From: Anas platyrhynchos
Taxonomy: Eukaryota > Chordata > Aves > Anseriformes > Anatidae
Direction of reading: 5' to 3'
DNA length: 64,000 nucleotides
Assembly: GCF_047663525.1 (NCBI RefSeq)
Contig: NC_092587.1
Coordinates: 197,963,501 to 198,027,500, forward strand
A program made the position numbers and the translations under genes. The notes below the pieces were generated by a model. That model searched no databases, was not told the origin of the DNA, and saw only the letters and a program-made list of their open reading frames with translations. Shown one piece after another: positions 1 to 56,322 of the stretch (positions are counted from its first letter, which is position 1; each line of letters begins with the position of its first letter).

Positions 1-2402
1 CTATACGTATATATTTTCTTAATACGGTGTCACACATTGCCTGGACTCCCCAGTGGCTTCCTTGGTGTAGAACGGCTAACATTTCTCTCATTATCTGTTT
101 GTTTACCATTTCTCTCCCATCAGGGAGAGTCCACCGTCCTTCGGACTCCTTTGCTCCTAATTCCCTAAAGGCTTCTATTTCCTTTTTACTGAATATTTGC
201 TTTTCAGGTGGAGGTTTTATTTCAGGTACAAGAAGCAGCTTTGCTTCTACCTCTCATTGCAAAGCTGCTTCTTTAGCCTTTTCATCTGCAATCCTGTTTC
301 CCCATTTAACTAGGGAGTTTCCTTTTCGATGTCCTTTCACGTGCACCACAGCAACCTCCTCTGGTAGTAACAGACTTTCCAAAATCTGTCTAATTAATTC
401 TTCATGAACCAATTCCTTTCCCTTCCTGTTTACTAAGTCCTTTTCTTCCCATATTTTTCCAAATGCATGTACCACCCCATATGCATATTGTGAGTCAGTA
501 TATATAGTTCCCTGTTTCCCTTTTAATTATTTTAATGCTTGATTTAATGCATATAATTCACAGGTTTGAGCTGACCAATTGCTAGGCCGTCTTCCCATTT
601 CTTCGACATTCCCATCCGGTCCTTCAATGATGCAATAACCATTACATCTCTTTCCTTGTACCACCTTAGAAGACCCATCTGTAAACAATATTTCCCCTTC
701 CTCTAAGGGCACCTCTTGCAAATCTAATCTTACCTTTGCCTGGTAATTTATTAAATGTAAGCAGTTATGTTCCGTATTTATTGGATCCTCAATTCCCTTT
801 GACAAGAAGGAGGCAGGATTCAAAACAGACTCTGTAGTTATAGTTAAATCATCCTTTTCAATTAGTATAGCTTCATATTTTAGTATTCTGGAGTCTGTCA
901 GCCACCTTCCTGCTTTCTGAGTGAGAATAGCCTTCACTTGGTGAGGGGTAGCAACAATCAGTTGTCCTCCAAAGGTGAATTTCCTGCTCTCTTCTACTAA
1001 TAAGGCAGTTGCTGCTACTGCCTGAATGCGTTCTGGCCATCCCTGGGATACAGGGTCTAATAATTTAGACAAAGATGCTACAGGTTTCTTTTTATCTCCC
1101 ATTCTTGGGTTAACACCCCCAAAGCAGCACCCTCACTTACAGTTATAAAAAGATAAAATGATTTCTTTAGGGCAGGAAGAGCTAAGACTGGTGCTGTAAT
1201 ACGGTCTTTTTTTTTTTTTTTAATTTTCCATTACTTCTTCTTCCTCTTTAATCCAGTTCAGTATATTAGGTTCTTCCTCCAATAATTTGAGATATAATTT
1301 CTCTGATTTCTGTGCATATGCTTCTATCCACAGTCTGCAATATCCAGTTCAACCCCCAAATTTTCTCAACTCTTTCTTTGTTTTAGGGAGAGGAAGTCGC
1401 ACAATTCCCTGAATCCCCTCAGGGTTTACTCTCCGTCTGCCCTCAGAGACTACATGTCCCAAATACTTAACCTCTTTTTCTACACACTGTAATTTATCTT
1501 CAGATACCCTTAGCCCATGTTCTCCTAAAAAATTCAGGAGTTTATTGGTGGCTTCCTTTACCTCCGATCTTTCTTCCCCAGATATCAATAAATTATACAC
1601 ATACTGTAACAACATCACCCCTTCTGGAATCTGAAATGTTTCTAAAATCTTTTCCAATTCTTGCCCAAACAAATTGGGAGATTCAGTGAATCCCTGAGGC
1701 AAAGCAGTCCATCTATATTGCTGTTTACGACCTGTCTCTGGGTCTTCCCATTCAAGTGCAAAAATGTATCTACTTTCAGGATCTAGTGGGCATGCCCAAA
1801 AGGCATCCTTTAAATCTATAACATTGAACCATTTGTGCTCATAAGGGATTTTACTCATCAGGGTGTAAGGGTTAAGAACCACAGGGTGGTGCTTTCATGT
1901 TATCTTGTTAACTTTTCTCAGGTCTTGTACTAATCGGTACGAACCATCTGGCTTTCGTACTGGTCAAATTGGAATGTTATATGGTGACATACAAGGCTCC
2001 AAAAGACCATCTTTAACTAAAGTTTGCACTATAGGTTTCAGGCCCATTTTTCCTTCACAAGAGATAGGCTACTGTCGTTGTCTAACTCTTCCGCTCCCTT
2101 CTTGAACAGTTATCTTTAAGGGAGTTATGTTAAGCCCTCCTCGATTTCCTGCCCTTACCCATACCGTGGGATTTATTTCTTTTTCATCATTTTCTGTTAA
2201 TAATTTCATTGCGACTGTTCTTCCTTTTTACCAGGTCTTCAATCATAATCCTAATTTGACTATTAAATCTCTCCCTAATGTTATATATGGAGTGGTAATT
2301 CGTGTCGAGAAAATGGTTGATATTAATAAAGAAGGGGGAGATTTAGGAATGTGGCCATGGGGGTTGGAAAACCCCATGAGTGAGACAACATTAGACTCTT
2401 AA
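1..2402 (-). mobile_element. Class I endogenous retrovirus fossil, pol part (unit A, cut by window edge)
   Basis: On the minus strand this encodes, from right to left, a reverse transcriptase (about 2105-1349, with the recognisable start of the polymerase domain), RNase H (about 1102-254) and the beginning of the integrase region. Similarity is to gammaretrovirus-like pol. It is broken, with several breaks in pol. There is no recognisable gag and no 5' LTR to the right, so the copy was truncated at the 5' side before the array was amplified. The rest of this element type is seen complete to its 3' LTR at 17564-22011. Confidence 0.85.
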
Positions 2403-4496: not shown

Positions 4497-5256
4497 GAAG
4501 GGCAAGCGCTGTGCTGCAGCCTGGCCCCAAACTCAAGCCCCTGCCTGCGAGGCTCACCAGAGAGCAGGACAAGTAGCCACTGCATCTGTGTGCCCATTGC
4601 CGGGCTGTTTCACGGGTTGCCTTTGTGGAGATTTGATGTTTCTCTCTAATCGTTGCATGCTCAGCACAAAGCATGTTTTTGCAGGCATTGCTCTCCTGCG
4701 CACACTGCCAGTGTACAGCCAGGGAAGCAGCTGCTGCAGCAGCTCAGAGCAGAAGGCCACGGTTGTTCACTCACCCAATGCAGCTGCAAAGGAGCCTCCA
4801 TTTTTTCGGGGAACTCCAGGCCTCTGGGTACAGCAAGGGACAGGGTTCCCCTATCTCTGGTTCTCTCTCTCCCCTCTTTGCTGGGAGGCTCTGGATGAGG
4901 GCCTCTACTTCTCTGATTTGGCAGGTGGCTGCCACAGCTTGCACCACGGCTTCTCCTTGGGCCAGACCTCAGAAAAGAGACACTGGTCCTCGCAGAGAGC
5001 TGCCGCCTGCTGGAAAAGCAAGACCAGGTTGTTGAGCAAAAGCTATAGCAGCAAATCCTCGTCTTGTGTGCTTGCAAGATGCTGGCAATGCATCAGGTGA
5101 GCTCCACAAGGATGGCAGAACAGGGATAGGGTTGTTACAAGGGTAGTGCTTCTGAAGATTTGACGTTTCTCTAACCACTTCATGCCCTTCTCCCCTGCAG
5201 GAAATAGGCTGCCTGTGCCGCCAGCAAGACAAAAGTACTCTGAGAAGAACTTCCGA
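4497..5256. other. Unassigned stretch (also 27311-28070, 46923-47682)
   Basis: Several plus-strand acceptor- and donor-like signals (for example GTTTTTGCAG near 4684, GATTTGGCAG near 4925, CATCAGGTGAGC near 5098, CCCCTGCAG near 5202) suggest decayed exons of a plus-strand gene. The open frames between them are short and match nothing I recognise. It contains the second copy of the exon-end-like repeat. Confidence 0.3.
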
Positions 5257-5763
5257 GAAGTTGTTCCTTGTCAATTTTGCTTTGGCACTATCAAAAGTCA
5301 TCTGATAACCAGCCAGCCAGCCTTCATAACCGAAGACAGCTGAACCATGGATTGCAGGCCCAGCAAAGTCAAAGTCAACATCACAACCGAGGTTTAGGCA
5401 TTCACGTTTATATGCTGACTTGATTTTACCACTCTTCTTTCCTGTATTTGGTGAGAAAGTTGTATCAAACGTCAACTTCAAGCCTTTGGCAATCTGATCT
5501 TCAATTGCAATTTCTGTTCCCAGAGTGTTATCTGTGTTCCATTTTTCTGTGAAAGTCAGCCCATACTCAGCCCACTTGTATTTGGTCTCCAAGCTCCCAT
5601 TAACTTTTCCAGTGTCGGTGTTTGAAGAACCAGATGTTGTGAACTCCACTCCACTTGCAGATTTTGTTTTCACATCCAGCTTCACCAACCCAAACCCATA
5701 TCCTTTATTGAAGGTATCTCTGGCAGATTTGCCAAGGTCTGCGTACGACGGAGGAATTGCCAT
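5257..5763 (-). pseudogene. VDAC2: VDAC2 retrocopy, N-terminal 169 codons (unit A)
   Basis: Starts [20 protein letters not shown] and follows vertebrate VDAC2 nearly residue for residue to ...LTRNNF, then stops matching. VDAC2 is the outer-mitochondrial-membrane beta-barrel anion channel of about 283 residues, so only the N-terminal helix and roughly the first half of the barrel are present. There are no introns, although the parent gene has several coding exons, so it is a reverse-transcribed copy. The 3' part is missing, the opposite of the usual 5' truncation of retrocopies. The frame is open through the matched part and runs on into unrelated codons. It cannot make a normal channel. Confidence 0.9.
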
Positions 5764-6090: not shown

Positions 6091-6787
6091 CAGAAGATGC
6101 AGGCGGAAATGCAGAGGCTGCAGAGGGGGTGTGCTTCCTCCATGGCACTCATGGACCTGAAGAACGCTCTGCAGCTGGTACCAGTGGAGATGAAGCATCA
6201 GCATGTCCTCATCCCTCTCCCTCCAGCGAAGAAGGCTGAGGCAGCTCCCCTCAGCAAATCAAGTGCCAGGTAAGTGTGGGCCAGCTCCCACAAAGGCCAG
6301 GAAAAGCTGAGCTGCATCAGGCTGCCCGAGGGATCCAGCATGCGGGTTGCTCAGCTCTGGGCTTTGGCTCTCCATCCCCTGGCTGCTTCGGGGAGGCAAT
6401 GACTGTGGAGAGGACCTTGCCTCCAGACGTTCCCCTGCAGACCCAAAGTCCTGAAGCTCCCCTGCAGCCGACAGTCACGTACCCACAGTGGAAGGGGGCT
6501 GTGCTCCCTGCTCCTGGGGCTGGGGGCAGGCAGAGCTGGGGACCTTCAGATCCTACCTGAGAGTTTTTTTCTCTGTTGATGCAGCTACCAATTAGTACGG
6601 AGTGTGCAGGCGGGGAAAGTGATGGAGAAGAGAAAGGAGGCCTGGAAAATCACTGGGCTGCGGCGCACTGCCTCTGTCTTGCTTCCGCGATTGCGCTCTA
6701 CACACATTTCTTATTTCATTTCATTAAGATGTAATATTTATCTTTATTTCAATAATATTTATCTTTATTTCATTAAGATTTAATAAA
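6091..6787 (+). CDS. Two 3'-terminal exons of an unidentified gene (unit A)
   Basis: Exon 6091-6269 lies between TTCCCCTGTAG and GCCAG/GTAAGT, and exon 6585 onwards follows CTGTTGATGCAG. The exon join keeps one frame (phase 2): QKMQAEMQRLQRGCASSMAL... then SYQLVRSVQAGKVMEKRKEA... About 60 codons lie in the first exon, and the second is open to a TAA at 6779 that abuts an AATAAA signal (6782-6787). The Met/Gln/Leu-rich start suggests a short coiled coil; the second exon is basic (KVMEKRKEAWK, LRRTA). Upstream exons were not found, so it is partial. I do not recognise the family. Support comes from matched splice phase, the poly(A) signal and preservation in all three units. Confidence 0.45.
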
Positions 6788-6790
6788 CAA

Positions 6791-7249
6791 ACAAACGGCT
6801 GTTCTACAGTTTTCTTTCCACACCCGAATGGATCACTGTGCACGCTCCGCGGGGCCTGCTCGAGGTTTGTACGGGCCAGAAATGAGAGAGCTTCATTCTC
6901 GGTACCGGGTTGCTCAGCTCGCTGGTGGCCCTACAGGAAAGATGCTCCCTGAGTGCACAGAGAGAGAGAGAAAAGCTGCTCCCCGACAGGGCAGCTCCTG
7001 ACCCTTCCTCTGACAGCCCTGGCGGCCATTTGGCAGTTCTGCCTGCCCCCCCGCGCCACAAGCTGGCTGAGGCCTTGGCCTGTCCGCAGCACGGCTGTCA
7101 GTGGTGTCGGGCGGCATCTAGAGCCAAGAGGCCTTTCCTTTTCTTTGTGCTGAAGGAAACTTTGTGCTGTCTGGAGAGGCAGTGCCTCTTTGCTCCAAGT
7201 CTTGCAGGGTTGCCTCTCACTTTGAGGGCCCTGTTTTTCGTCAGCATTT
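6791..7249. other. GC-rich stretch without a supported gene (also 29604-30062, 49217-49675)
   Basis: Several overlapping frames are open on both strands because the region is GC-rich and stop-poor. No frame has a family match, splice support or start context. A short GAGA run lies near 6959-6972. Confidence 0.3.
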
Positions 7250-7700
7250 GTGAGGGGCTTCTGCATGCGCCCCGCTCACTTGTTGCGGCCAGGGCTTCCC
7301 CCCAGGATGTCTGGGCAGGCCCATGCCGCTGGGCAGGCTCTGGGTGGGCCTCGTTCCCTGCAGGGGCAGGCGTCTGCCCCTGAGCCCAGAGCCCAGGAGC
7401 GGCTCCTGCACTCGCGGCTGCCCCTGCGCGGGCTGCTGCCGCTGCTTCTGGAACCTTCCTGCAGCCTCTGGCAGCTGGCGCCTGCGTGGCGGCCGCACGT
7501 TGGGCTTGGCAGCCTGGCATCTGCAGGCCGTGCCAGCCTGCAGCATGGCATTGGCGGCCTTGTTGCCGTCCCCAGGGCACGGCTGAAAGGGGATTTGGGG
7601 CATTTGCTTTCCAGGGGCTGGGCACGTTGGGGATGCAATACCCCACCACGTGCACAGGCAGTTCGCACTGAACAAGGTGGGCTTTGCAGCCTCGTCCTGC
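7250..7700 (-). repeat. GC-rich module shared with the LC8 region (unit A)
   Basis: On the minus strand this segment matches sequence lying 5' of the LC8 pseudogenes on the plus strand of the same unit. The part at 7356-7534 is an inverted near-duplicate of 17144-17322, and the part near 7630-7690 (TGCCTGTGCACGTGGTGGG) matches 16124-16165. All three minus-strand frames are open for 185-310 codons, so no reading frame can be chosen. It may be 5' flank or leader of an LC8-related gene. Copies: 30063-30513 and 49676-50126. Confidence 0.6.
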
Positions 7701-8899
7701 CCTCGTAGCCTGCTCCCTCCTGCAGCTGCCACCCCACAGCCCGCCTCCTCAAGCAGAAGAAATGCCCCAGCGGTAGCCTGCAAAGTGCAGGTGTGCCAGG
7801 GGCCCCTTGCTGCTCTGGCAATATGCACAACAGAAGAGCCCAGCTCCAGCAGAAGGACGGGATGCGTACTGCCTGGCGCTTGTGCGTTGCCTGTGGCCCG
7901 AGTGGGCAAGCCAGCATGTAGCCAGAGCCGGTTCTCAAGGCTTTCCCTATTAGTTGGGAACCCCGTGGAGGGTTTTTCCTGAGCTGAGGGTGTTGGCTGT
8001 GCTCTTCCTAGCCCAGCTCTTCTGTAGGGGGCAAAAAGGAGGGAGCTGGGAAGCTCCCAGACACTGAGGCCATCTCCAGGGCTCTCCGCAGTGACGCCAT
8101 CTGGCACCTTCCCATGAGCAGTGGCCAAAGCACAAGGGCCCGTCTTCTTTGTTGGGGAAGCCCCGCGCTGCATTTCCAGTGCCAGAAATGCTTAAATACC
8201 GTTCCTCCTTTCTTGCTTTTCAGCGTGTCTTAGTACCTGGGCTGGGTGCCTCCTTCCTTATTAAAGTGGGGCTGCTCTTGTTTTTTGCTTTGAGCTCCTC
8301 CAGGTAAAGAAGCCCACTTTTCAGCTCTCGGAGAACTTTGCCTGTCTTCCCGGAGTCCCACATAAGAAAGAAAGAGACTTTTCCCGTTTCTTTCTCAGGT
8401 GAATTTGGCCGCATCAGCAGGAAAAGTGTCCTGACACATGTCCTACTGACTGTCTTTTCCTTGCCGGGCAGCTGCTTGGTGAGCACCGGCTGTTGCAGCA
8501 CTTCCTCCCCTTGTGTGCTTGCAGGCTGCTGACAGCACGTCAGGAGAGCTTGCAGGCTGCTGACAGCACGTCAGGTTCTTGCAGTGGAAAATTCCACTAA
8601 CCTTGCATTTTCAAAAGGGATTGTGCGGGCATGGCAGTAGCATACCAGGTGAAGTATTTTAAGCAGATAAGGGGAATGTCCCACAGTCGCAAAATGAGGA
8701 GGATAGCTAAGAAAAGCAGGAGAATCAGGGCAAAAATCAGTAACAAACAAATAAATAAATAAATAAATCACGGGCATTCTGGTCACGAGAGATGAAGAAA
8801 AAAATAATTAAAAAAAAAAAAAAGGAAAAGGGGAAAATAAAGGTTGGTCAAATAAAATTGTACATATATGGCGTAGTAGTAAGCATCGCGTGGTTTGTG
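7701..8899. other. Stretch with no supported gene, ending in A-rich tract (also 30514-31712, 50127-51322)
   Basis: A long minus-strand frame (8173-7241) is open in all units but overlaps two other open frames and has no family match. At 8530-8580 a 31-bp segment (CTTGCAGGCTGCTGACAGCA...) is repeated directly twice. An (AAAT)n microsatellite at about 8748-8768 and an oligo-A run at 8811-8824 precede the CR1 fragment; the oligo-A run is shorter in unit C, which accounts for part of the unit length differences. Confidence 0.4.
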
Positions 8900-9395
8900 A
8901 ACCTGATTCTCCCCCTGTACTCAGCTCTGGTGAGGTCGCGCCATGAATACCCTGTTCAGTTTTGGGGCCCTCACTGCAGGAAGGACGTGGAGGTCCTGGA
9001 GCATGTCCAAGGAAGGGGAAAGGAGCAGCCGAAGGGCCCAGGGAGCAAGTCGTGTGAGGAGTGCTGAGGGAGCTGGGGTTATGTAGCCTAGAGGAAAGGA
9101 GGCTTGGGGGAGACCTTATCACTGTGTACAAGGACCTCAGAGAAGGTTGTAGTGCGGTGGGGGTCAGTCCCATCTCCCAAGCAACAGGCGGTAGGAGAAG
9201 AGGAAAAAGTGGGGCCGCGGGAGGTTTAGGTGGATTTAGGTTTAGGTTTAGGCAAAAAGTCTTCAACAAAAGGGTTGTGAAGCATTGGAACAGGCTGCCC
9301 AGGGAAGTAGTTGAGTCACCATCCCTGGAGGCATTCGAAAGCCGTGTAGATCTGGTGCCGAGGGACACGGTTCAGTGGTAGATTCTATGATTCTG
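8900..9395 (+). mobile_element. CR1 LINE 3' end (unit A)
   Basis: Contains the hallmark CR1 3' region, including TGGAACAGGCTGCCCAGGGA and GAGTCACCATCCCTGGAGGC, and ends in GATTCTATGATTCTG, the CR1 tail repeat. It is 5'-truncated and internally shortened, so immobile. It lies head-to-head with the 3' end of the array gene. A (TTTAGG)n run at 9234-9252 inside it varies in copy number between units. Confidence 0.85.
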
Positions 9396-9502
9396 TACTT
9401 CTCTGACTGTGAGAGGCCCCGGGTTGGCATGGCCTGCACCACTCTTTCTCCTGAGATCAATGGCACAGAGAGGAGCACTGGGGGCAAAAGTCTGCCTGAG
9501 CT

Positions 9503-9508
9503 TTTATT
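9503..9508 (-). terminator. Poly(A) signal of the array gene (unit A)
   Basis: AATAAA on the minus strand, about 180 nt after the stop codon. The same AATAAAAGCTCAGGCAGA context is kept in the diverged copy at 25339, which supports its use. Copies at 32310-32315 and 51926-51931. Confidence 0.75.
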
Positions 9509-9685
9509 CAGAGCAGAAAGCAGCCGCAGCTGAGCTGAGGCTGGGGGCAGGATGTGGTGGGGCATCTGAATTCCTGGGGCGCTGTCCTGTGCCTCGCAGT
9601 GATGCTTCCGTGGGTGCTGCAAAGCTTCCTGAGGGCCAGCTGCCAGCTCCGAGCATCCTCCTGGGACTGGCACAGCCGGGCGCGG

Positions 9686-12600
9686 CTACTCTCGCTGTCC
9701 TGCGATGCAGCTGCAGCGGAAAGCCCTGCGCAGCGCGCGAAGTGCCCTCCTGATGCGGGAGGGCCGTGGCTGGCGCGCCGGGGCTTGTGCGAGGTCAAGG
9801 GTGCCTGTGGGGGACACAGAGGTGTAGGTTAGGGCCTGAGCGGGTGCTGGGCGAGCCTGTCCCCCCCTCCAAGGCCTTTCCCCGGGGAGGGGTGGCCCAG
9901 GACCAGCCAGCCCCCCTGCGCGTGGTGCTGCCAACCTTGTGCTTGGTGCTGCTCGCTGCGCTGAACAGGCCCGGCCAACAGATCCTGGGACGGCGCTTGT
10001 GTCTGGGATGTTGCTGGCTCATCCGCTGGCGTATCTTTGGTGCAGGAGGAGGACTGCGCTTGGCCTCCCTGCTCGATGGCCACCTGCATGGGGAGAGGAA
10101 CAGCACGGGCAGCTGAGGAAAGGGATGTCAGCCCTTGTGCCTGGGGCATGTGGAAATGCAGAGCAGCAAGCAGCTCCCGGCACGCACACCCAATGCACTG
10201 CTTCTGCCTGGGGCCGCCCTGGATGCCTGGTGCCCACCACGTGTGCTGTGCTTACCTGGTGCCCAGGAACCAAGGGAGTGGCTGCTGCTCCTGCTTCGTC
10301 AGCTGCTGCTGGGCGGAGATCTGTGATGGCCTCCCGGAGAGGCTCTGCAGCCAAAGGAGAAGCCCCTTCTCCACCTTCTTCTTGTGGCATTGCTGCTGCA
10401 GCGAGAGGGGCTTCATTGGCCTCCCCCACAGGGCCTCTGGCCAAGGCAGAGGCCGAGGATGTACATTCTGCAGGCTCTGGTGTGGGAGGAGGCACCCTGG
10501 GCACTGTGACCCAGGGAGCACTTGCTGCCTTGCTTGGGGCTCCCGCTCCCTGGATGATGGCTACAGAGTGGAGTAGGACTGCAGCCACGATGGTGTCAAC
10601 TCTTTCATCCAGCTCTTCATCAGAGACACTGCAGGCATGTCGGGCACGTCCCTGGCTCTCCACCATCACGGCAGCGCTGTGCTCGCTGGGGCTTGGAGAG
10701 GCCGATGGTTTTGACTGTGGAGCCCCACGTGTCAGGGGAGGCGTCCTGTGTCCCTCATCTTCCAGAGCAGGGGCTGCTGGAGGACTTGCTGGCCTGCTCT
10801 GTGCCGGTGTTGTTGTGGTGAGAGGCGTGCTGTGCCTCTCTTCCCCAGGAATTTCTTCCTGGGGAGCAGCTGATGGGACAGTGTCCGTGGTTTGCAGCGA
10901 GCCAGGAGAGGCGCTTGCTGGGTGTTCTGCTTCTTGTGCTGCCTCCCTTTCCACACTGCTGGCTGCGCTGCCCTCTTCCTGCGGAACGTCCTGTGCGTCT
11001 GTGAAGAGGCTGGCGAACCTGGGGTTGATCCAGGAGTTGATGATGACGACCTCCTCTTCATCGCATCCCCCAGGACTGCTCTCTTTCTTGCCCCGGCCTT
11101 GGCTTGTCCCCTCGTTTCCTGTCCCCTGCCTGGGTTTGATGTGTTTCTCTCTCTGTTTTTTCTTTTTACCCTGGCCTGGGCTAGCTGCTGCAGGGTCTCT
11201 GCTGGAAGCCCTTGCTCCTGCGCATACCCGGGAATCAGGCCCTGGCAGAGCAGTGGTCCGCCTCCTCTCCATGTCTGTCTGGACCCCGGCTGATCTCGTT
11301 GCTCTCCCTGTGCTCCCCGTGCGTGCCAAGTCCCCCAGTGCTCCAGCCAAGGCAGATGCTGAGGATGTAGAGTCTGCAGGCTCTGCTGTGGGAGGAGGCA
11401 CGCTGGGTCCTGTGGCCGAGGGAGCACTTGGTGCCTTGCTCACGGCTCCCTGGCTCATGGCTTCAGCACGGCGTATGACTGTGGAAACGATGGTCTTGAC
11501 TCGTTCATCCAGCTCGTCATCACAGGCACTGGAGGCATGTCGGGCACGTCCCTGGCTCTCAACCATCACCGCAGTGCTGTGCTCACTGGGGCTTGGAGAG
11601 GCCGATGGTTTTGACTGTGGAGCCCCACGTGTCAGGGGAGGCGTCCTGTGTCCCTCATCTTCCAGAGCAGGGGCTGCTGGAGGACTTGCTGGCCTGCTCT
11701 GTGCTGCTGTTGTTGTGGTGAGAGGCGTGCTGTGCCTCTCTTCCCCAGGAATTTCTTCCTGGGGAGCAGCTGATGGGACAGTGTCCGTGGTTTGCAGCGA
11801 GCCAGGAGAGGCGCTTGCTGGGTGTTCTGCTTCTTGTGCTGCCTCCCTGTCCACACTGCTGGCTGCGCTGCCCTCTTCCTGGGGAACGTCCTGTGCGTCT
11901 GTGAAGAGGCTGGCGAACCTGGGGTTGATCCAGGAGTTGATGATGACGACCTCCTCTTCATCGCATCCCCCAGGACTGCTCTCTTTCTTGCCCCGGCCTT
12001 GGCTTGTCCCCTCGTTGCCTGTCCCCTGCCTGGGTTTGACGTGTTTCTCTCTCTGTTGTTTTTTCTTCTTACCCTGGCCTGGGCTAGCTGCTGCAGGGTC
12101 TCTGCTGGAAGCCCTTGCTCCTGCGCATACCCGGGAATCAGGCCCTGGCAGAGAAGTCGTCCACGTCCTCTCCAGGTCTGTCTGGACCCCGGCTGAACTT
12201 GTTGCTCTCAATTTGCACCCCGTTTGTGCCAGGTCCCCAAGTGCTGCTGATCGTTGGCCGTGTTCCCAGCTTTTTTGCGTCTTCTGCAGCACTTCAGACA
12301 CGCGGGAGTGTGCTGTGTCCTGCAGTGCCGTGCAAGAGTCTGCAGGGCTGTGTGGGGCAGGGTGCCAGCTCTTCTTTAAATTCTGGGGCCCAGTTGCGGG
12401 CTGAGGTGGTGTTCTGTGTCCTTTGCTCGTGGGAGGTCTGCCCACAGGAGGAAGCCTTGCCTCCCTCATGGCTCCCTGGTTCCAGGCAAGGCCATTTCTT
12501 ATTGCAGTGGAGACAAAGGCCTTTATTCGGTCTTCCATTTCTTCGTCAGGGGATGCAAGGCTGCTTTTGGACGAGTGCCGACTCTTCCAGTTTTGGGCCG

Positions 12601-13781
12601 CTGCTGTGGTGAGAGGTGGTGTTCTGGGGCCTTTGGTCCTGGGAACTCTGCTTGAGGGAGAAAGCCTTGCCTTGCTGCTGGCTCCCTCGTTGCAGGCTAC
12701 AGCGTTTGTTATGACGGTGGACACAAAGGACCGTATTGCATTGCCCATGTCCTCGTCAGGGGCCACAGGGCTGTGTGGGCCACGTTCCCGCCTCTCTGCC
12801 CTCACTGCTCTGTCCCTGTTGCCAGAGATGCAGGGAAGAGGTGGCAAAAGCTCTTGCTGGCTGCGGGCCTCTGTTCCCAATGACTTTGCCCTTCCTCCCC
12901 CTGAAGAAGCAGAGGCTGCTGCTTGCAGAGGGGGCAGCTTGCAAGTGGCCTTTTCAGATGATGATGTCTCTGCTTTAGGCACTTGCTTGGGTGCTGCTGC
13001 CTGAGTCGCTGCCTGCCTTGGCAAAGGCGGCAGGGCTGGCAGCTGGATTCTCTCGGCCTGCCTCACCCCACGGTGAGGCAGTGTCTTGATGTCTTGCGGC
13101 TTCTTCTCCATCTGCAAGAGAAGCGAGAAGAAAGGCCAAGTTACTTGGGCCATTTCTGCCATTCTGCTCCGTGTCCCCACTAGAAGTGCTGCTGTGAGCT
13201 GCCCTGCAGCGGCCCCCGGCACGCCCTGGCAGCTGCCCACGCAGAGCGGGGCTCAGCCTGCCAGGGTAATGCCCTGCCTGTCTCCTCCTGCGAGTGCTGC
13301 CTGCTCATCGCAGGCTGCCAGGGCTGCCAAAGATGTTCGACCGAACCGTCCTGGGGCTCCCGACTCCGTGTGGCAGCTGCCAGTGTGACGCACGCTCTCT
13401 GGGCACGACCGCACCGGCAGCCTGTCCGCATGGAGGGACGGTGGAGGCAGCTCCTGGCTGCGCACAGCCAGGTTGAATTAGGCCACGCTGCTCTTTGTGC
13501 CTGTGGGCACAGAACTGCCAGGGCCACATGGGCTTTGGCTGTCCTGGGGGTGGGCTCTTCATGGAGAAACCCCAGGTTTGGGAACAACTGTGTCCAGGCC
13601 GGAGGGGCTCAGGGCCAGCTGGCCGGCTCGCTCCAGCACCGTTCTCCTCATCCTGGTGCTCTCGGTGCCATCCCGTCACACTGCTGTCCCTGTCTCGCTC
13701 CCTGAGCCTCACCTGGCGCCGCTCCTGCACGCTCCGCTGCCCTTCAGCGGGCTGGGAGTCATCCTTATTCTGCTGCTCCAT
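9686..13781 (-). CDS. Array gene, four exons, 1063 aa, family not recognised (unit A)
   Basis: Exons (minus strand): 13781-13713, 13111-10256, 10083-9936 and 9804-9686. Every intron is GT/AG (CCAG/GTGAGG...TTGCAG; CCAG/GTAAGC...ATGCAG; CAAG/GTTGGC...CCACAG), phases agree, and the sum is 3192 bp. The start is the first ATG after a TATA box; the ATG at 13904 lies upstream of that box and was rejected. The protein is Pro/Ser/Ala/Glu-rich and mostly disordered. There are two 70-residue modules (about 140-280), each with a helix-like SFVSTVI-type motif and an RTPP motif, then two 300-residue repeats (about 311-910). Each 300-residue repeat has SAGVQTD, a GKKKKQ basic patch (likely nuclear signal), an acidic DEEE run, a conserved INPRFASLF core, RTPPL and another helix motif. 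The C-terminus is Arg-rich (IRRALRALRRAF). No transmembrane segment or signal peptide. Function unknown; a nuclear role is inference. A divergent copy at 22886-25344 preserves the same C-terminal frame across exon 4. Confidence 0.8.
10430..12240 (-). repeat. Two tandem copies of a 900-bp coding repeat in exon 2 (unit A)
   Basis: The segment at about 10430-11330 recurs at about 11330-12240 with a 900-903 bp offset; for example GGGGCTTGGAGAGGCCGATG is found at both 10688 and 11588. The period is a multiple of three, so the repeat adds 300 residues without breaking the frame. Equivalent in B at about 33240-35050 and in C at about 52855-54670. Confidence 0.92.
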
Positions 13782-13890
13782 GCTATGCTCCAGGTCCTCT
13801 GACCAAGAACTCCAACAGGCACCCAGGGGAGCTGCTGCCTCCTGACAGAGCTGCTCTCCTGAGAGTGAGTGGGCAGCCCGGGGCTCGGGC

Positions 13891-13896
13891 TTTATA
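13891..13896 (-). promoter_or_regulatory. TATA box of the array gene (unit A)
   Basis: Minus strand CCCTTATAAAGCCC, a consensus TATAAA. A start site about 30 bp downstream (near 13862) would give a 5' UTR of about 80 nt with no earlier ATG. The surrounding sequence is GC-rich. Confidence 0.65.
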
Positions 13897-13899
13897 AGG

Positions 13900-14289
13900 G
13901 ACACCGTTGCCGTGGGTACCCCTCCGTGTCACAATGGCCTTTGGGTACGCATCACAATGCCCCGGTGGTTGCCATGGGGCCCTCAAGCCCATATGCTGGC
14001 AGACACCCCAGGGACACCGTCTCACACACCCACAGCAGGATCTGCATTGGCAGGTACCTCTGGCTCCTTCCAGCCAGTGCCCCCGGCTCAGCCCCAGCTC
14101 AGTCTTTCTCAGGGCAGTTAGCTTAGCTCCCTAACTGCTCCCAGGTAACTGCGCGTTACCTGCTCTGCCAGGAGATGCTCTGCTCGGTCGTCCGCGTAAG
14201 CTTCCTGGCTCTTTTGCCTGACTGCCCACACATCAGCAGAGACTGCACTCGAGCTTGGACGCCCATCAGGCCACCCTGGCAGTGCAGCT

Positions 14290-14333
<44 letters not shown>

Positions 14334-14654
14334 GATTCCTCCCGTGTCCGGGCAGCCAGAGGCCTGTGGCTCTAGGCACTGTGAAGTGCTCCCAGAGAAG
14401 GTGGGCTCCAGGGAGCCGGTGGAGCTGGCAGAGAGGTGGCTTGAGGCAGGCTCTGGCAGGGCTGTGAGAGGAAAGCCCTGGGCAGCCGCAGGACGAGTTC
14501 CTGCTCCTTGCTTTAAGAGCAAGCTGTGGAGGAGCTTTCAGCAGCAGAGCCACAGCTGTGCCACGCTGCTGTTTAGCCTGCAGCTTCTCTGGCTGCTGAA
14601 GCAGGTCCTATGCTTCAGAGTTGTGCCTGAAACAGTGTTGGTAACACAACGGTG
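13900..14654. other. 5' flank of array gene with (GGAGCA)n microsatellite (also 36713-37467, 56332-57086)
   Basis: Upstream of the TATA box. A hexanucleotide GGAGCA run of about seven units lies at 14291-14333 (37104-37146 in B, 56723-56765 in C) and has the same length in the three units. No gene is supported. Confidence 0.45.
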
Positions 14655-14740
14655 TCTTTGCTGGAACAGGTTGCCCAGAGAGGCTGTGGCGTCTCCATCC
14701 TTGGAGATCTTCAGAAGCACAATCCTCGGAATTGTGCGTA
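14655..14740 (+). mobile_element. Short CR1 fragment (also 37468-37553, 57087-57172)
   Basis: TGCTGGAACAGGTTGCCCAG followed by a TCTCCATCCTTGGAGATCTT stretch matches the CR1 3' region over about 80 bp only. Confidence 0.65.
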
Positions 14741-15475
14741 AAGCTCGTCCTTTGGGGAGAAAGAGAAGGAATTGGAAAAACAACCCCAAAACTAGGGAAA
14801 AGGATAAAAAAGCACAGGTTAGATATTGTCCAATTGTCTGGCCTGAAAAGCCATTAAAAGGAACTTTGCTCCTTTGGCCACAACGCAGGTCCGATGAAAA
14901 TTCCCGCTTCAAGTTTACAGGTAAACAATAAGACTCCTTTTCCGCAGGAGGAATCAAGTTATGCTCCCTCTAACCCTAACATTGCAGCCGAGGCAGCAGG
15001 AGCTGCACCAGCAAGGAAGTATATGTGTAAGTGTACGTGCTTGAGACAAAGTATTGGATCTGCTTGAGACAAAGTATTGCTGTGAAGGGAGTGACTCCTC
15101 ACTCTAGAGTAACACTTGTAACAGTAACAGTAGAAGTTGTTGTACAGCAGATACAACATGAGAATCCTGTAAGGGGATGGCCTGTCCCGAATGGCAAGGG
15201 GTAGTACTGGCTCTGCGGCAATAAATGCAGGAAGGTGTTGCCCCTTGGCTGGAAGGCAGCTTGCACCCTGGGGGCAATAATTCCACATGTACCTATTACT
15301 GAAGACCCACAACGCCAAAGCCCCCTTGAGACCGCACGCAGAATTACGAGGACTCCACATAATCCTCTAGGAAACCGAACCAGGGAATTTCACTCACTGG
15401 AGAACTAGAAAATAACACTCTGCACGCAGTCCAGGCACTACGAGAGGAGCTAAGAAGCTTCTCAGAAACAGTACT
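14741..15475 (+). mobile_element. Retroviral env-like relic (also 37554-38288, 57173-57907)
   Basis: Around 15170-15330 the plus strand carries a conceptual segment with WPVPNGKG, WLCGNK and LPLGWKAACTLGA, resembling retroviral envelope surface/TM sequence of avian ERVs. It is broken and its limits are unclear. No polypurine tract separates it from the LTR that follows, so the two may come from different insertions. Confidence 0.5.
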
Positions 15476-16076
15476 TGTGTTGGGTCTGTCTGAGCTGGAG
15501 TCACCTTTTCCCTGCAGCAGCCCACACAGTGCTGTGCTCTGCACTCGTAGCTGGAGCAGCACTGATATCGCTCAAGTGTTGTGTCTGTTGCTGCGCAGTG
15601 CTGGCACGGCATCAGGACTCCTTCCAAGCCCCCAAGAGCCAGCAGGCTGGGGGTGGGCAAGTGATGGGGAGGGGGCATTGCCAGGGCAGCTGACCTAAAC
15701 CAACCAAAGGGATATTCCATAACACCTGATGTCACACTCAGCAATAAAAAGGGGGGCTCTCCTGGGGGAGGGGGCTGTTCCTCCTGAACAACCACTATGC
15801 GTTTTGAGGCCCTGCTTCCCAGGACGTGGCCGAACATCGCTCGTTGATGGGAAGCAGAGAATATTTTTTTTCCCTCTATCTGTGCTTCCGCACTGACTTA
15901 TTGTTTCTCTTGTTTCTTTTTTTCCTCCCCATTCCCTTTCCCTTTAATTAAACCTTTCTCATCTCAAACCTCGAGTTCTCTGTGTTGTATTTTCTCCCCC
16001 TTCCTCTTTGAGGAGAGGGGGAGTGAGAGAGCGGTTGTGGTGGAGCTCAGCTGCCCACCTGAGTCAAACCACAACA
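15476..16076 (+). repeat. LTR, about 600 bp, plus orientation (unit A)
   Basis: Starts TGTGTTGGGTCTGTC and ends GTCAAACCACAACA. Inside are a TATA-like AATAAAAAGGGG near 15741, a pyrimidine-rich U5 leader and a TTTAATTAAA poly(A)-like motif near 15945. It resembles avian ERVK-type LTRs. No direct repeat was seen at the flanks, so the target-site duplication is lost or the LTR is rearranged. Confidence 0.7.
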
Positions 16077-16235
16077 GGCCAACAGGGCTGCTGGTATTGG
16101 CTGTGTTCCCTGTTCGCTGCAAAGTGCCTGTGCACGTGGTGGGAGATTGCATCCCCAGCTTTCTCAGGCCCTGGAAGCAAATCCCCCAAAAGCGGAGCAG
16201 TGGCATCACGAGCGGAGCCCCGGAGGCAACCGCGG

Positions 16236-18040: not shown

Positions 18041-21000
18041 ATTCCCCCCTTTTCTTCTTCATAAACTGTTGATTTTTGCAAAACCTTTCTCTAAGGTGTA
18101 ATTTGGTAGATTTCTTCTTCTTTGCTTTCTTTGCTTTCCATCTCCTCATTATCACCTTATCTGAGTAAGGTGGTGGCTCCATGGTCATTTGTTTCAGTAG
18201 TGCGGTTTCAGTTAACCACTGTACTAGTCCTCTTACACAGGGGATAATGCAGCAACCAATGGCTGTCAAAACTCCTACTACAACTGCAATCAAGGATGTA
18301 AATATGCCTACTTTTTCTGCCAATTCACTGGCAAGGGTGGTAAGCCTTTGAAGTGCTTTGAAGTGAGGCAGGATGCCATGGAGTATGAAATTCCCATTTT
18401 ATTCCCAAGGCTTTTCCAAGTTTCCACTTGACCAAGGCCTCCTCTGAGAGGTACACAATTAATAGTTGATTCTTCCCTATCATCGTTTTTTAACCTTAGG
18501 CTTCCAAATAATTATTAATACAAAGAATAAGATGTACACTACTACTATAATAAACTCCTCTTGGGAGCACTTCAATTTGTTATAGGTCTGTCCTTTTTAG
18601 TTACCTGTGAAAATAAAGGGTTAGTTTACAACTGTAAGCTTTTATCCTGCTCAGAGTCTGTTACGAGATTTTTCTTTTTGATTTTAACTTTCAACAAGTC
18701 GTCTGTAGGAACAACTTCCCAGGCGCTAGGGTCGGTAGCTGCTTTCACTCGAGTATAGTGAGTCCAACCTTTTTCCGCAGCTCTTACAGCTGTTTCAGTG
18801 CTTAGCAGTACTTGGAATGGTCCTTCCCATTCAGGCCGAAGTTTTGATTCTTTCCAGGTGCGTATCAGGACCCTATCTCCTGCATGGAATGAATGTACTG
18901 GGAATTCCAAAGGCGGAGTTTGAGCCAACAGTCCACGAACCCTGAGAGATTCTAAGAAAGAAGATAATCCAGGCATATAATTTTTGAGGAAAATATCTTT
19001 AGTTTCAAAAACAGGTATCTCACCGTTTCTACCCAGGTACGGTAGTCCAAACAACATCTCATATGGTGAAACTCCTACATCTTTTCTAGAAGCAGTTTGA
19101 ATTCTGAGAAGTGCTAAAGGTAAACACTTTGTCCAGGGAAACTTAGTCTCTAAAACCAGCTTTGACGGATGTTTCTTTAATGTCTGATTCATTCGCTCCA
19201 CTTTCCCTGATGAGGAAGGATGCCATGGAGTATGAAATTCCCATTTTATTCCCAAGGCTCCCATGAATCCTTGTAAAACAGATGAAGGGAAATGACTTCC
19301 TTGATCTGAATCTGTATTTTCAACAATCCCATATCTAGGGATTATTTGTTCCAGGATTACCTTTATCACCACACTAGCTGTTGCTGATGCTGAAGGAAAA
19401 GCTTCTACCCATCCTGACAAATGGTCAATCAACACCAGCAAGTACTTAAATCTGCCTACTTTAGGTGATTCAGTAAAATCGATTTGGATGCTCTGAAAAG
19501 GTTGAAGCCCTGGCTCCCGTCCGCCCAGGGGTTGTTTCCGTAGAGCCTTCTTATTCACTCGTTGGCATGCTATGCAACTATTACACGCTTGTTTAGCTAC
19601 AGCGTACATGCCTATACGTATATATTTTCTTAATACGGTGTCACACATTGCCTGGACTCCCCAGTGGCTTCCTTGGTGTAGAACGGCTAACATTTCTCTC
19701 ATTATCTGTTTGTTTACCATTTCTCTCCCATCAGGGAGAGTCCACCGTCCTTCGGACTCCTTTGCTCCTAATTCCCTAAAGGCTTCTATTTCCTTTTTAC
19801 TGAATATTTGCTTTTCAGGTGGAGGTTTTATTTCAGGTACAAGAAGCAGCTTTGCTTCTACCTCTCATTGCAAAGCTGCTTCTTTAGCCTTTTCATCTGC
19901 AATCCTGTTTCCCCATTTAACTAGGGAGTTTCCTTTTCGATGTCCTTTCACGTGCACCACAGCAACCTCCTCTGGTAGTAACAGACTTTCCAAAATCTGT
20001 CTAATTAATTCTTCATGAACCAATTCCTTTCCCTTCCTGTTTACTAAGCCCTTTTCTTCCCATATTTTTCCAAATGCATGTACCACCCCATATGCATATT
20101 GTGAGTCAGTATATATAGTTCCCTGTTTCCCTTTTAATTATTTTAATGCTTGATTTAATGCATATAATTCACAGGTTTGAGCTGACCAATTGCTAGGCCG
20201 TCTTCCCATTTCTTCGACATTCCCATCCGGTCCTTCAATGATGCAATAACCATTACATCTCTTTCCTTGTACCACCTTAGAAGACCCATCTGTAAACAAT
20301 ATTTCCCCTTCCTCTAAGGGCACCTCTTGCAAATCTAATCTTACCTTTGCCTGGTAATTTATTAAATGTAAGCAGTTATGTTCCGTATTTATTGGATCCT
20401 CAATTCCCTTTGACAAGAAGGAGGCAGGATTCAAAACAGACTCTGTAGTTATAGTTAAATCATCCTTTTCAATTAGTATAGCTTCATATTTTAGTATTCT
20501 GGAGTCTGTCAGCCACCTTCCTGCTTTCTGAGTGAGAATAGCCTTCACTTGGTGAGGGGTAGCAACAATCAGTTGTCCTCCAAAGGTGAATTTCCTGCTC
20601 TCTTCTACTAATAAGGCAGTTGCTGCTACTGCCTGAATGCGTTCTGGCCATCCCTGGGATACAGGGTCTAATAATTTAGACAAAGACGCTACAGGTTTCT
20701 TTTTATCTCCCATTCTTGGGTTAACACCCCCAAAGCAGCACCCTCACTTACAGTTATAAAAAGATAAAATGATTTCTTTAGGGCAGGAAGAGCTAAGACT
20801 GGTGCTGTAATAAGGTCTTTTTTTAAAAAAAAATTTCCATTACTTCTTCTTCCTCTTTAATCCAGTTCAGTATATTAGGTTCTTCCTCCAATAATTTGAG
20901 ATATAATTTCTCTGATTTCTGTGCATATGCTTCTATCCACAGTCTGCAATATCCAGTTCAACCCCCAAATTTTCTCAACTCTTTCTTTGTTTTAGGGAGA

Positions 21001-22011
21001 GGAAGTCGCACAATTCCCTGAATCCCCTCAGGGTTTACTCTCCGTCTGCCCTCAGAGACTACATGTCCCAAATACTTAACCTCTTTTTCTACACACTGTA
21101 ATTTATCTTCAGATACCCTTAGCCCGTGTTCTCCTAAAAAATTCAGGAGTTTATTGGTGGCTTCTTTTACCTCCGATCTTTCTTCCCCAGATATCAATAA
21201 ATTATACACATACTGTAACAACATCACCCCTTCTGGAATCTGAAATGTTTCTAAAATCTTTTCCAATTCTTGCCCAAACAAATTGGGAGATTCAGTGAAT
21301 CCCTGAGGCAAAGCAGTCCATCTATATTGCTGTTTATGACCTGTCTCTGGGTCTTCCCATTCAAGTGCAAAAATGTATCGACTTTCAGGATCTAGTGGGC
21401 ATGCCCAAAAGGCATCCTTTAAATCTATAACATTGAACCATTTGTGCTCATAAGGGATTTTACTCATCAGGGTGTAAGGGTTAAGAACCACAGGGTGGTG
21501 CTTTCATGTTATCTTGTTAACTTTTCTCAGGTCTTGTACTAATCGGTACGAACCATCTGGCTTTCGTACTGGTCAAATTGGAATGTTATATGGTGACATA
21601 CAAGGCTCCAAAAGACCATCTTTAACTAAAGTTTGCACTATAGGTTTCAGGCCCATTTTTCCTTCACAAGAGATAGGCTACTGTCATTGTCTAACTCTTC
21701 CGCTCCCTTCTTGAACAGTTATCTTTAAGGGAGTTATGTTAAGCCCTCCTCGATTTCCTGCCCTTACCCATACCGTGGGATTTATTTCTTTTTCATCATT
21801 TTCTGTTAATAATTTCATTGCGACTGTTCTTCCTTTTTCACAGGTCTTCAATCATAATCCTAATTTGACTATTAAATCTCTCCCTAATGTTATATATGGA
21901 GTGGTAATTCGTGTCGAGAAAATGGTTGATATTAATAAAGAAGGGGGAGATTTAGGAATGTGGCCATGGGGGTTGGAAAACCCCATGAGTGAGACAACAT
22001 TAGACTCTTAA
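17564..22011 (-). mobile_element. Class I endogenous retrovirus fossil: RT, RNase H, integrase, env tail, 3' LTR
   Basis: Minus-strand order: RT (about 21714-20958), RNase H (about 20713-19865), integrase with zinc-binding, DDE core and C-terminal GPF-type domains (about 19720-18626), the membrane-spanning tail of an envelope TM subunit (about 18323-18030), a polypurine tract abutting the LTR, and the 3' LTR (17564-18040). The layout and the env tail fit a gammaretrovirus-like element. It is broken, with several breaks; gag, most of env and the 5' LTR are missing. The same copy sits at the same place in every unit, so insertion predates amplification. With one LTR, no LTR-LTR age is available. 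Confidence 0.88.
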
Positions 22012-22619: not shown

Positions 22620-22885
22620 AGGTTAGGCACAACGGATTTGGCCACATGGGACCGAAGAGGTGTCCTCGCACAGCCAGAGTCTGGAGGAGTCATCGTCTTT
22701 CCCAGGTGAGTGTGCTGCGTCTGCAGCCCATGGCTGGCGTCAAGGCCAGGGCACTGCAACTACTGAGTGTGGTGGCCTGGAATCACACTGCTGTCCTCTT
22801 CTTGCTTCCAGGATTGGGCTCTACATTCCATCTGGAAGAGCTGCAGGGGGTAATCCAGTTCAAAGTCCTGAGAAGCAGGCTGAAA
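22620..22885 (+). pseudogene. CCDC81-like exons, cut by the unit B block
   Basis: First exon 22620-22705 and the start of the second from 22812, equivalent to 3011-3096 and 3203 onwards. Homology to units A and C ends at 22885 inside the second exon, where sequence from intron 1 of the inverted array-gene copy begins. The exon has no donor here, so this copy is truncated. Confidence 0.55.
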
Positions 22886-25344: not shown

Positions 25345-25438
25345 AGCTCAGGCAGAGTTTTGCTCCCAGTGCTCCTCTCTGTGTCGTTGATCTCAGGAGA
25401 AAGAGTGGTGCAGACCACGCCAACCTGCTTCCCGTAGC

Positions 25439-25638
25439 ATTCAACACCGTGCAGCGCTGCATTCAGGAGACCCTGCTCTTTCTCTCCTACACCCTTGCAA
25501 AGAAGCAGGCTGTTGATTTCATCTTCAAGGACATCGGCCGTCTGGTCTCCCGCAAGAGCAGAGTCCAAATGCACTTTTCCTCCGACTTTGTTCACAACCT
25601 GAATAGCAACGGCCAGCTGTTGAAATGCCGCCTCACTG
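25439..25638 (+). pseudogene. CCDC81-like exon encoding the second HU-type domain (unit B only)
   Basis: Between a CTTCCCGTAG acceptor and a CACT/GTAAGT donor lies an open frame reading VQRCIQETLLFLSYTLAKKQ followed by VDFIFKDIGRL and a basic VSRKSRVQMHF stretch. This aligns residue by residue with the human CCDC81 second HU-like domain (VEGCVKETLLFLS..., VEFTFKGIGVL..., KVKMRFYKDF). In CCDC81 the exon after it encodes the ...VLAFPRIEL segment, seen here at 22620 upstream, so exon order is scrambled relative to a working gene. It begins just 3' of the poly(A) region of the diverged array-gene copy. No other HU-domain exon was seen in the window, so this is most likely a stranded exon. Confidence 0.75.
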
Positions 25639-25639
25639 T

Positions 25640-25950
25640 AAGTTTCTCACTGCACCAGCACAGCCCAGGGCTCCTGGGAAATGCCCCAAGAGGCCGTTGG
25701 CGTGTTAGGAAACAGCTGGGGAAGAGGAAGGAGGCCCTGCAGGAAGGCAGGACCAAGAGCAGAGCTGTGGACATCCCCGGGAAGACTGTGGAGGAGCTCC
25801 CGCTCTGGTAGTCCTCTGCTGCAACAGCCTTCTTTCCACAGCCCCTTGTTCAGTGAGGCCTCTGGGCTCTCACTGGCACCCTTCTCCCTGAAGGGAGCAG
25901 GGAGTGTCACTCAGCTCTCCTCTCTGGAGCGGAATCTTGAACCTTTCCAG
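25640..25950. other. Intron-like stretch of the unit B block
   Basis: Follows the HU-domain exon donor (GTAAGTTTCTC). No gene or known repeat is seen. Confidence 0.3.
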
Positions 25951-26160
25951 AGAATCACAGAATGGCTTGGGTTGCAATTGATGTTAAAGATCTTCTATTC
26001 CCTCCTGCCCCCTGCCATGGGCAGGGATGCCATTCACTAGAGCAAGTAGCCCAGTGCCTCATCCAAACAGGTCTTGAAGACCTCCAGGGATGGGGCATCC
26101 ACGGCTTCTCTGGGCAAGCTGTTCCAGTGCCTCACCACCCTCTGTGTGAAGAAGTTTTGT
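25951..26160 (-). mobile_element. CR1 LINE fragment (unit B only)
   Basis: Plus strand reads AGAATCACAGAATGGCTTGG, then GCCATGGGCAGGGATGCC, CCTCCAGGGATGGGGCATCC and CTGTTCCAGTGCCTCACCAC, the reverse complement of a CR1 3' end. It sits between the HU-domain exon and the diverged CCDC81-like exon, near the right edge of the unit B block. Confidence 0.88.
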
Positions 26161-26208
26161 GGCCACCAAGGAGCAGCTCTGACTAGCCTTCTCTTTTCCT
26201 CCTGACAG

Positions 26209-36594: not shown

Positions 36595-36703
36595 GCTATG
36601 CTCCAGGTCCTCTGACCAAGAACTCCAACAGGCACCCAGGGGAGCTGCTGCCTCCTGACAGAGCTGCTCTCCTGAGAGTGAGTGGGCAGCCCGGGGCTCG
36701 GGC

Positions 36704-36709
36704 TTTATA
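36704..36709 (-). promoter_or_regulatory. TATA box of the array gene (unit B)
   Basis: Identical TATAAA and spacing to the ATG (36594) as in unit A. Confidence 0.65.
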
Positions 36710-37102
36710 AGGGACACCGTTGCCGTGGGTACCCCTCCGTGTCACAATGGCCTTTGGGTACGCATCACAATGCCCCGGTGGTTGCCATGGGGCCCTCAAG
36801 CCCATATTCTGGCAGACACCCCAGGGACACCGTCTCACACACCCACAGCAGGATCTGCATTGGCAGGTACCTCTGGCTCCTTCCAGCCAGTGCCCCCGGC
36901 TCAGCCCCAGCTCAGTCTTTCTCAGGGCAGTTAGCTTAGCTCCCTAACTGCTCCCAGGTAACTGCGCGTTACCTGCTCTGCCAGGAGATGCTCTGCTCGG
37001 TCGTCCGCGTAAGCTTCCTGGCTCTTTTGCCTGACTGCCCACACATCAGCAGAGACTGCACTCGAGCTTGGACGCCCATCAGGCCACCCTGGCAGTGCAG
37101 CT

Positions 37103-56213: not shown

Positions 56214-56322
56214 GCTATGCTCCAGGTCCTCTGACCAAGAACTCCAACAGGCACCCAGGGGAGCTGCTGCCTCCTGACAGAGCTGCTCTCCTGAGAGTGA
56301 GTGGGCAGCCCGGGGCTCGGGC

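Follow-up and report, generated by a model that had tools for sequence, protein, structure and literature searches.

An amplified, intact gene of an unnamed bird protein family in tandem arrays of the duck genome

Among described systems, those closest to the gene reported here are the testis amplicons of birds. Testis-biased multicopy genes are reported from seven of ten chicken dot chromosomes (PMC9974502). Four testis families of the chicken Z are not arrayed on the duck Z, and the duck genome paper reports none of these Z-linked testis arrays (PMC7787181), which is what makes an autosomal duck family of interest. A second relevant system is that of the A-kinase anchoring proteins (AKAPs), whose helices dock PKA as well as SPA17, ROPN1 and CABYR, all sperm proteins (PMC8339350). 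Here, we analyzed a window of 64,000 nucleotides from the duck Anas platyrhynchos (assembly GCF_047663525.1, contig NC_092587.1), which corresponds to C1:197963501-198027500, where C1 is taken as duck chromosome 1. Each tandem unit in this window carries a four-exon gene on its minus strand. A preliminary description of the window had called this an intact and apparently undescribed gene, amplified once per array unit, whose protein matches no family. Our analysis indicates a multi-copy protein-coding gene of a fast-evolving, unnamed bird family, for which a sperm or ciliary scaffold would be the most likely role, with a probability of roughly 0.45.

Gene structure and copies across the genome

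The array units in the window are ~19.6 kb long and 99.4-99.8% identical to one another. Within each, the gene consists of exons of 69, 2856 (or 2862 or 2865), 148 and 119 nt, separated by introns of 601, 172 and 131 nt. Copy A spans 13781-9686 and, read on the minus strand, comprises exon 1 (13713-13781, with the ATG at 13781), exon 2 (10256-13111, 2856 nt), exon 3 (9936-10083) and exon 4 (9686-9804). Exon 2 encodes two tandem internal repeats of ~300 amino acids with five predicted helices, and exon 4, which includes the TAG stop, codes for a basic C-terminal helix ending in RAFRCSCIAGQRE. Upstream lies a TATA box, TTATAAAG (13890-13897, minus strand), located 109-116 bases 5' of the ATG. 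Further upstream lie two X-box-like motifs on the plus strand, GTTGCCGTGGGTAC (13906-13919) and GTTGCCATGGGGCC (13968-13981), with zero and one mismatch, respectively, to the X-box pattern. An AATAAA signal is found downstream of the stop (9503-9508, minus strand).

Copies B and C, also on the minus strand, have the same organization. In copy B (36594-32493), exons 1 to 4 lie at 36526-36594, 33063-35924 (2862 nt), 32743-32890 and 32493-32611 (with the stop), and the promoter at 36703-36794 contains the TATA box at 36710-36703 and the X-box-like motifs at 36719-36732 and 36781-36794. In copy C (56213-52109), the exons lie at 56145-56213, 52679-55543 (2865 nt), 52359-52506 and 52109-52227 (with the stop); its promoter at 56322-56413 has the TATA box at 56329-56322 and the X-box-like motifs at 56338-56351 and 56400-56413. 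The encoded proteins are 1063, 1065 and 1066 amino acids long in A, B and C. Thus, the gene ends, four exons, GT/AG junctions, phases, TATA box and AATAAA signal given in the preliminary description were all confirmed in each of the three window copies. The gene is less new than that description supposed: among protein matches, the top one is a 1065-residue protein predicted by NCBI with identical exon joins (P0001), although it bears only the name "uncharacterized protein [Anas platyrhynchos]". An Rfam search yielded no match.

To count copies elsewhere, 48 of 1767 first-look candidates in the assembly were scored, giving 57 matches; all copy numbers are lower bounds. We found at least 18 full-length copies, all 18 free of stops, and one more copy with three of the internal ~300-residue repeats (L028, C1:189801775-189809539, at 189.80 Mb), which is 1369 codons long including the stop and fully in frame; the number of internal repeats thus differs between copies. 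The array of the window holds at least eight full-length copies, spaced by 22.8 and 19.6 kb in mostly alternating order. A second array holds at least four at C1 146.87-146.91 Mb (spacing ~10.9 kb) and a third at least three at C1 200.87-200.90 Mb (spacing 12.26 kb), while single full-length copies lie at C1 190.97 Mb, C1 199.59 Mb and C5 41.85 Mb. With near-identical, intact tandem copies in three arrays (8, 4 and 3; 15 of 15 intact), the gene is organized as an ampliconic gene would be. That it is amplified once per array unit is correct for the three window units, in each of which it is intact, but it also occurs outside this array, at other C1 sites and on C5. The remaining assembly matches are partial copies, short fragments and members of a second subfamily, some of them with stops.

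The flanks shared with six other loci of full-length copies correspond, as far as fetched, to approximately window 6765-16080, with the entire gene inside; at 189.80 Mb the comparison reaches only down to window 8259. Because these flanks are shared, the units of different size appear to be built around one block containing the whole gene. Nine other open reading frames (ORFs) in and around the shared core had no Pfam match (0/9). As had been proposed, the gene is the most obvious candidate for the cargo of the amplification.

Over most of its length, the array itself (C1:197931333-198084276) shows the alternation of 22.8 and 19.6 kb as a 42.4-kb higher-order unit, and in both pairs of copies compared across the distance of one 42.4-kb unit, the members were identical or nearly identical. 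Near the edge of the array, a copy of the second subfamily (L027, C1:198092047-198098306) has an open frame of 602 amino acids, whereas the four second-subfamily copies inside the array all contain stops.

Maintenance of the reading frame and rates of substitution

The complete gene model fits 19 of the 20 loci retrieved; the exception is L027, which belongs to the other subfamily. All 19 keep the ATG, the three GT and three AG intron ends, an in-frame stop, the TATA box, both X-box-like motifs and the AATAAA signal. L027 and the three-repeat L028 were omitted from the alignments, leaving 18 copies with 16 distinct coding sequences. Across these 18 copies, exon 2 shows nine distinct gap events, and all nine are multiples of three. 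Eight further gap events fall outside the exons: three of 1 base, one of 7 bases and four of 18-36 bases. The last four lie in the 5' flank, have lengths likewise divisible by three and resemble a six-base repeat. At 255 biallelic coding sites, no nonsense change is present in any copy, compared to 8.0 expected without control for CpG (P 0.0003). When change types are controlled, the expectation falls to ~4.6 (P about 0.01; the rate is, for example, 2.3 per 128 changes). Some pairwise counts list one or two stops, which arise from codons with double changes taken singly; no copy has a real stop.

The length of the open frame was rejected as sufficient evidence, because the antisense strand of the same DNA also has ORFs of 821, 823 and 824 amino acids in the three window copies. 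These serve as a warning against trusting ORF length in DNA of such composition. The antisense ORF at window 9939-12404 (plus strand) is open in all three window copies and broken in copies elsewhere. The long antisense frames, together with the difference of only 0.07-0.2% between window copies in the gene, would fit a recent, GC-rich, low-complexity duplicon that stays open passively and is too young to decay. Against this stands the behavior of the two strands over all 18 copies. In exon 2, none of them carries a stop in the sense frame. The longest rival frame, on the antisense strand, is interrupted by 3 to 7 stops in every copy, and within exon 2 its longest open stretch shrinks from 715-718 codons in the eight copies of the array to 563 and 228 at other sites. 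The in-frame gaps, the missing nonsense changes and the same gene architecture in swan and goose models also contradict passive openness, which we regard as most improbable.

The 18 copies were picked as full-length matches, and frameshifted copies may be under-counted, since these would surface as partial matches. At three loci with partial copies (199.608 Mb, 200.852 Mb and C1 193.29 Mb) there are no exact matches to the promoter motifs. Those at 199.608 and 200.852 Mb are internally deleted but retain open frames, whereas the copy at 193.29 Mb is damaged, truncated and shifted. The reading frame is under selection, and the gene is very probably a functional protein-coding gene. That its full-length copies keep a readable frame suggests that they are kept for a purpose.

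Selection on individual residues gives a different picture. The three window copies differ from one another at 5 to 12 positions, too few for a ratio of nonsynonymous to synonymous rates (dN/dS). Among recent copies, the 36 pairs of nine representatives gave dN/dS values of 0.33-1.07 (one pair with a single difference omitted). With change types controlled, the range was 0.42-1.32 with a largest |z| of 1.93, never significantly off neutral. Repeats 1 and 2 within exon 2 gave values of 0.62-0.66, with intervals that reach 1. The preliminary description had named dN/dS near 1, combined with many frame-breaking copies, as grounds for doubting the gene. For recent copies, the condition on dN/dS largely holds. 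Many frame-breaking copies, in contrast, were not encountered: all 19 copies that fit the full gene model are intact, and damage was seen in partial ones.

Older divergence was assessed with a dead paralog of the second subfamily, which lies in an insert in the window (described below). Compared to this paralog, three parts of the gene gave dN/dS values of 0.53 (0.37-0.82), 0.58 (0.43-0.79) and 0.49 (0.25-0.95); aligning the paralog to repeat 1 in place of repeat 2 gave 0.82 (0.59-1.18). Under the controlled comparison, synonymous changes are over-represented in the sense frame (pooled w about 0.67, z +3.6). The other frames show none, save the antisense frame with shared third positions (z +2.8). 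Gene and paralog differ by 20-22% across the exon-2 repeats, by 17.6% over exons 3-4 and by 13.7% within the N-terminal portion of exon 2. For noncoding parts, the values are 14.5% in intron 2, 18.2% in intron 3, 11.7% in the 3' untranslated region and 0.8% at the end of intron 1, a stretch over which they hardly differ. Between intact copies, coding divergence reaches ~4%, and it exceeds noncoding divergence in three of the eight copy pairs shown and is slightly lower in the other five. Thus, the frame appears to be guarded while residues change almost freely, and residue selection among recent copies is undetected. A disordered protein engaged in an arms race could evolve in this way, and so could one under relaxed constraint.

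The near neutrality of replacement among copies leaves room for a gene that works and yet is a passenger, carried by a block that spreads through its repeats (endogenous retrovirus and CR1-like pieces, a CCDC81-like neighborhood) with no benefit from copy number. The retroelement pieces within the unit are in line with such spreading, and in the tree each array stands apart from the others and contains near-identical members, a pattern expected from local unequal exchange. Against a passenger stand the intact frame, splice sites and promoter in 19 of 19 model-fitting copies over up to ~4% of coding divergence, and the state of the three partial copies examined, which lack exact promoter motifs and are internally deleted (two, with open frames) or truncated and shifted (one). 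We consider a passenger gene unlikely, though far from negligible.

Relatives in other birds, promoter and predicted protein

Initial protein searches found relatives in the goose Anser cygnoides, the swan Cygnus olor and one cormorant. A search from the cormorant protein extended the family to strong relatives (E 5.5e-27 or better) in at least 14 non-waterfowl species, including shag, shearwater, buzzard, ibis, eagles, potoo, falcons, razorbill, flamingo and kakapo; a match in the night parrot was weak (E 0.034). In the databases, these relatives carry misleading names such as futsch-like, capicua, sialidase-like and treacle-like. The swan and goose gene models have the same architecture as the duck gene, and the shag relative aligns with the duck protein in an N-terminal stretch and in C-terminal parts. 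Waterfowl relatives (goose, swan and unnamed matches) are 54-64% identical, which we judge to be fast for such close birds. Under loose patterns, a W-[IV]-N-P motif occurs in 13 of 18 non-waterfowl proteins, and a C-terminal basic helix around RRALRALRRAF in 14 of 35 family proteins (6 of the 18 non-waterfowl ones). No chicken relative was among the matches, although only ~8000 word-sharing candidates were scored per search, so this does not establish its absence. We found no description of the gene or family in the literature, within a limited search and going by database names.

Eight of the 17 strong non-waterfowl matches lie on contigs of 24-27 Mb. An NCBI model from the flamingo (P0030) joins the family protein to AIFM1-like domains; this is probably a false fusion of neighbors and a hint to the position of the gene outside waterfowl. 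Because of these contig sizes and the flamingo model running into AIFM1, the ancestral place of the gene may be the avian chromosome that carries AIFM1.

RFX factors and spermatids are the context to which X-boxes are linked. Only two X-box-like sites with at most one mismatch occur in the first 22,884 bases of the window, and both are in the gene promoter; 0.12 are expected per 19.6 kb.

Profile searches were performed on 25 family proteins, 18 from non-waterfowl and 7 from waterfowl or waterfowl-like sources. The ibis relative P0022 matched FSIP2 (fibrous sheath-interacting protein 2, PF15783) with 35.7 bits against a cut-off of 27, and with 40.6 bits for the segment alone. The shag relative P0019 matched the same profile region below cut-off (20.5 and 24.8 bits). 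Above cut-off, the claim that the protein matches no family holds for the main-type waterfowl proteins scanned, and the ibis relative departs from it. Non-waterfowl matches to DUF6658, phospholamban, DUF7360 and SmAKAP fell below cut-off and were treated as chance; that to SmAKAP, in P0025, had an E of 2.5.

AlphaFold predicts helices only at residues 143-165, 211-240, 279-306, 556-574, 856-878 and 1043-1064, corresponding to the five repeats and the C terminus, in an otherwise disordered chain. The repeat consensus, xALxDTAxxIVSxVLxxAVA, fits the RII-binding pattern of AKAPs, and three of the five repeat helices of the duck protein fit it as well. In register, 17 of 20 chosen repeats fit, but these had been chosen via a loosened form of the same pattern. 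A score built from six AKAP helices was badly registered and was discarded. A fold search with the low-confidence model returned no match and is uninformative by design, and PDB searches with the helices and with P0022 gave no match or chance-level ones.

Taken together, we envisage a duck gene in a duplicated block, spread over several arrays and single sites, in which promoter, splice sites and frame are kept intact. The compact TATA promoter with its two X-box-like sites could confer RFX-driven expression in cells that build a cilium or flagellum, above all spermatids. The protein would be mainly disordered, with several amphipathic helices of ~24 residues in its repeats and a W-[IV]-N-P motif that recurs. 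At its C terminus, which might act as an anchor, a Cys-x-Cys motif comes after the basic helix. Such a protein could form a flexible, multivalent scaffold of the sperm tail whose helices dock partners as AKAP helices do, and amplification might then provide more dose and diversity under reproductive competition. We infer germline expression, scaffolding, docking and anchoring alike, and count the X-box-like sites and the FSIP2 similarity as supporting.

Several results weigh against the sperm or ciliary scaffold. Replacement among recent copies is close to neutral, and the dN/dS intervals for the exon-2 repeats reach 1, as described above. The X-boxes were spotted by eye ahead of testing, and with at most two mismatches the window has 13 X-box-like sites against 9.8 expected, which is no excess. 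The FSIP2 match is confined to two of the 18 non-waterfowl proteins scanned, one of them above cut-off, with none in the remaining 16, and among the scanned waterfowl proteins of the main type, none reaches the cut-off for FSIP2 or any other Pfam family. The disordered chain was predicted with a mean pLDDT (predicted local distance difference test) of 32, a very low confidence. The RII-binding pattern occurs five times in the whole duck protein versus 1.2 in shuffles, a modest excess reached by 15 of 1000 shuffles, and the helices matched neither the AKAP chains in PDB nor the anchoring models in Pfam. The helices are also not extra-conserved among duck copies, with replacement-variable codons at 23/123 compared to 121/831 elsewhere (p 0.23).

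Some of these observations would also suit a real gene whose role lies in a different fast-evolving setting, for example in innate immunity, in restraining mobile elements or in the female germline. Rapid replacement, disorder and amplification are common there too, and helices that do not resemble those of AKAPs in sequence are compatible with it. The pair of X-box-like promoter sites and the FSIP2 similarity of relatives speak against such a role, and we consider it rather unlikely. The scaffold role stays the preferred one. Within it, AKAP-like docking by the repeat helices is doubtful. The most specific form of the idea is a bird-wide family of sperm-tail scaffolds with AKAP-like helices that dock PKA-type domains, diversifying nearly unconstrained in autosomal arrays of the duck under a strict frame, as in an arms race of sperm competition; taken as a whole it is improbable. 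Ducks are a classic system of sperm competition. With at least 19 intact, rapidly diversifying autosomal copies and relatives in seabirds, raptors and a parrot, the gene is a candidate for a fast-evolving reproductive gene of birds.

Neighboring sequences and comparison with known systems

Only one unit in the window carries an extra 3.3-kb insert (22885-26176, plus strand), which carries an inverted dead copy of the second subfamily and a CCDC81 HU-domain fragment. The paralog (23008-25194, plus strand) retains part of exon 2 (23008-24631), exon 3 (24805-24949) and exon 4 (25073-25194). It is a pseudogene, because it lacks exon 1 and has two in-frame stops and one frame change. At 22885-23185 it is 99% identical to the main gene over ~300 bases, after which identity drops to ~70-91% per 100 bases. 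Recombination or gene conversion may have produced this mosaic. The adjoining fragment of CCDC81 HU domain 2 lies at 25443-25655 on the plus strand (PF18289, E 2.9e-16).

Each unit also has an ORF (window 4969-5763 and equivalents) that starts with ~165 residues of a VDAC-like porin (PF01459) and continues in unrelated sequence. Retrovirus-like pol pieces occur as separate ORFs at window 527-1882, 18626-21491 and equivalents; they include an integrase with a C-terminal domain of the MLV (murine leukemia virus) type, RNase H and reverse transcriptase. CCDC81 HU domain 2 itself is matched 77 times across the duck genome at scores exceeding the curated cut-off; 70 of these matches are stop-free, and the matches form clusters on C1, C39, C30, C26, C35, C2 and others. 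CCDC81-like exons are thus a large separate expansion in this genome.

CCDC81 has a centrosomal function, and the gene might be the detached 3' part of a CCDC81-like gene with that function. A duck model (P0016, LOC119716484) fuses both CCDC81 HU domains to sequence like exon 2 of the second subfamily, the HU domain 2 fragment adjoins the dead paralog, and HU domain 2 exons lie near gene loci. Nevertheless, none of the 18 non-waterfowl members scanned has an HU domain, and the shag member resembles the duck protein in N-terminal as well as C-terminal parts. In the duck, a separate promoter and exon 1 belong to the main subfamily, and P0016 may be a prediction artefact across neighbors. Such an origin is very unlikely in our view.

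The comparison with known systems is as follows. To the CCDC81 HU family, the likeness consists of the fragment beside the dead paralog and of the duck models P0016 and P0017, which join HU domains to the second subfamily, whereas the main gene lacks both HU domains (PF14908 and PF18289). FSIP2 is a sperm fibrous-sheath protein and far larger. It resembles a segment of ~120 residues in two non-waterfowl relatives, one above and one below cut-off, but neither the main-type waterfowl proteins nor the rest of the relatives. With AKAPs, the protein may share a repeat consensus that fits the RII-binding pattern, while differing in the lack of a match to solved helices or Pfam models. With the avian testis amplicons (chicken Z arrays, dot-chromosome amplicons and HINT1W), it shares tandem arrays of an intact bird gene; it differs in its unnamed protein, in its location on an autosomal macrochromosome and C5, and in its testis expression being putative. 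The protein family appears to be new as a described entity, and its probable kind, the bird testis amplicon, is one already known.

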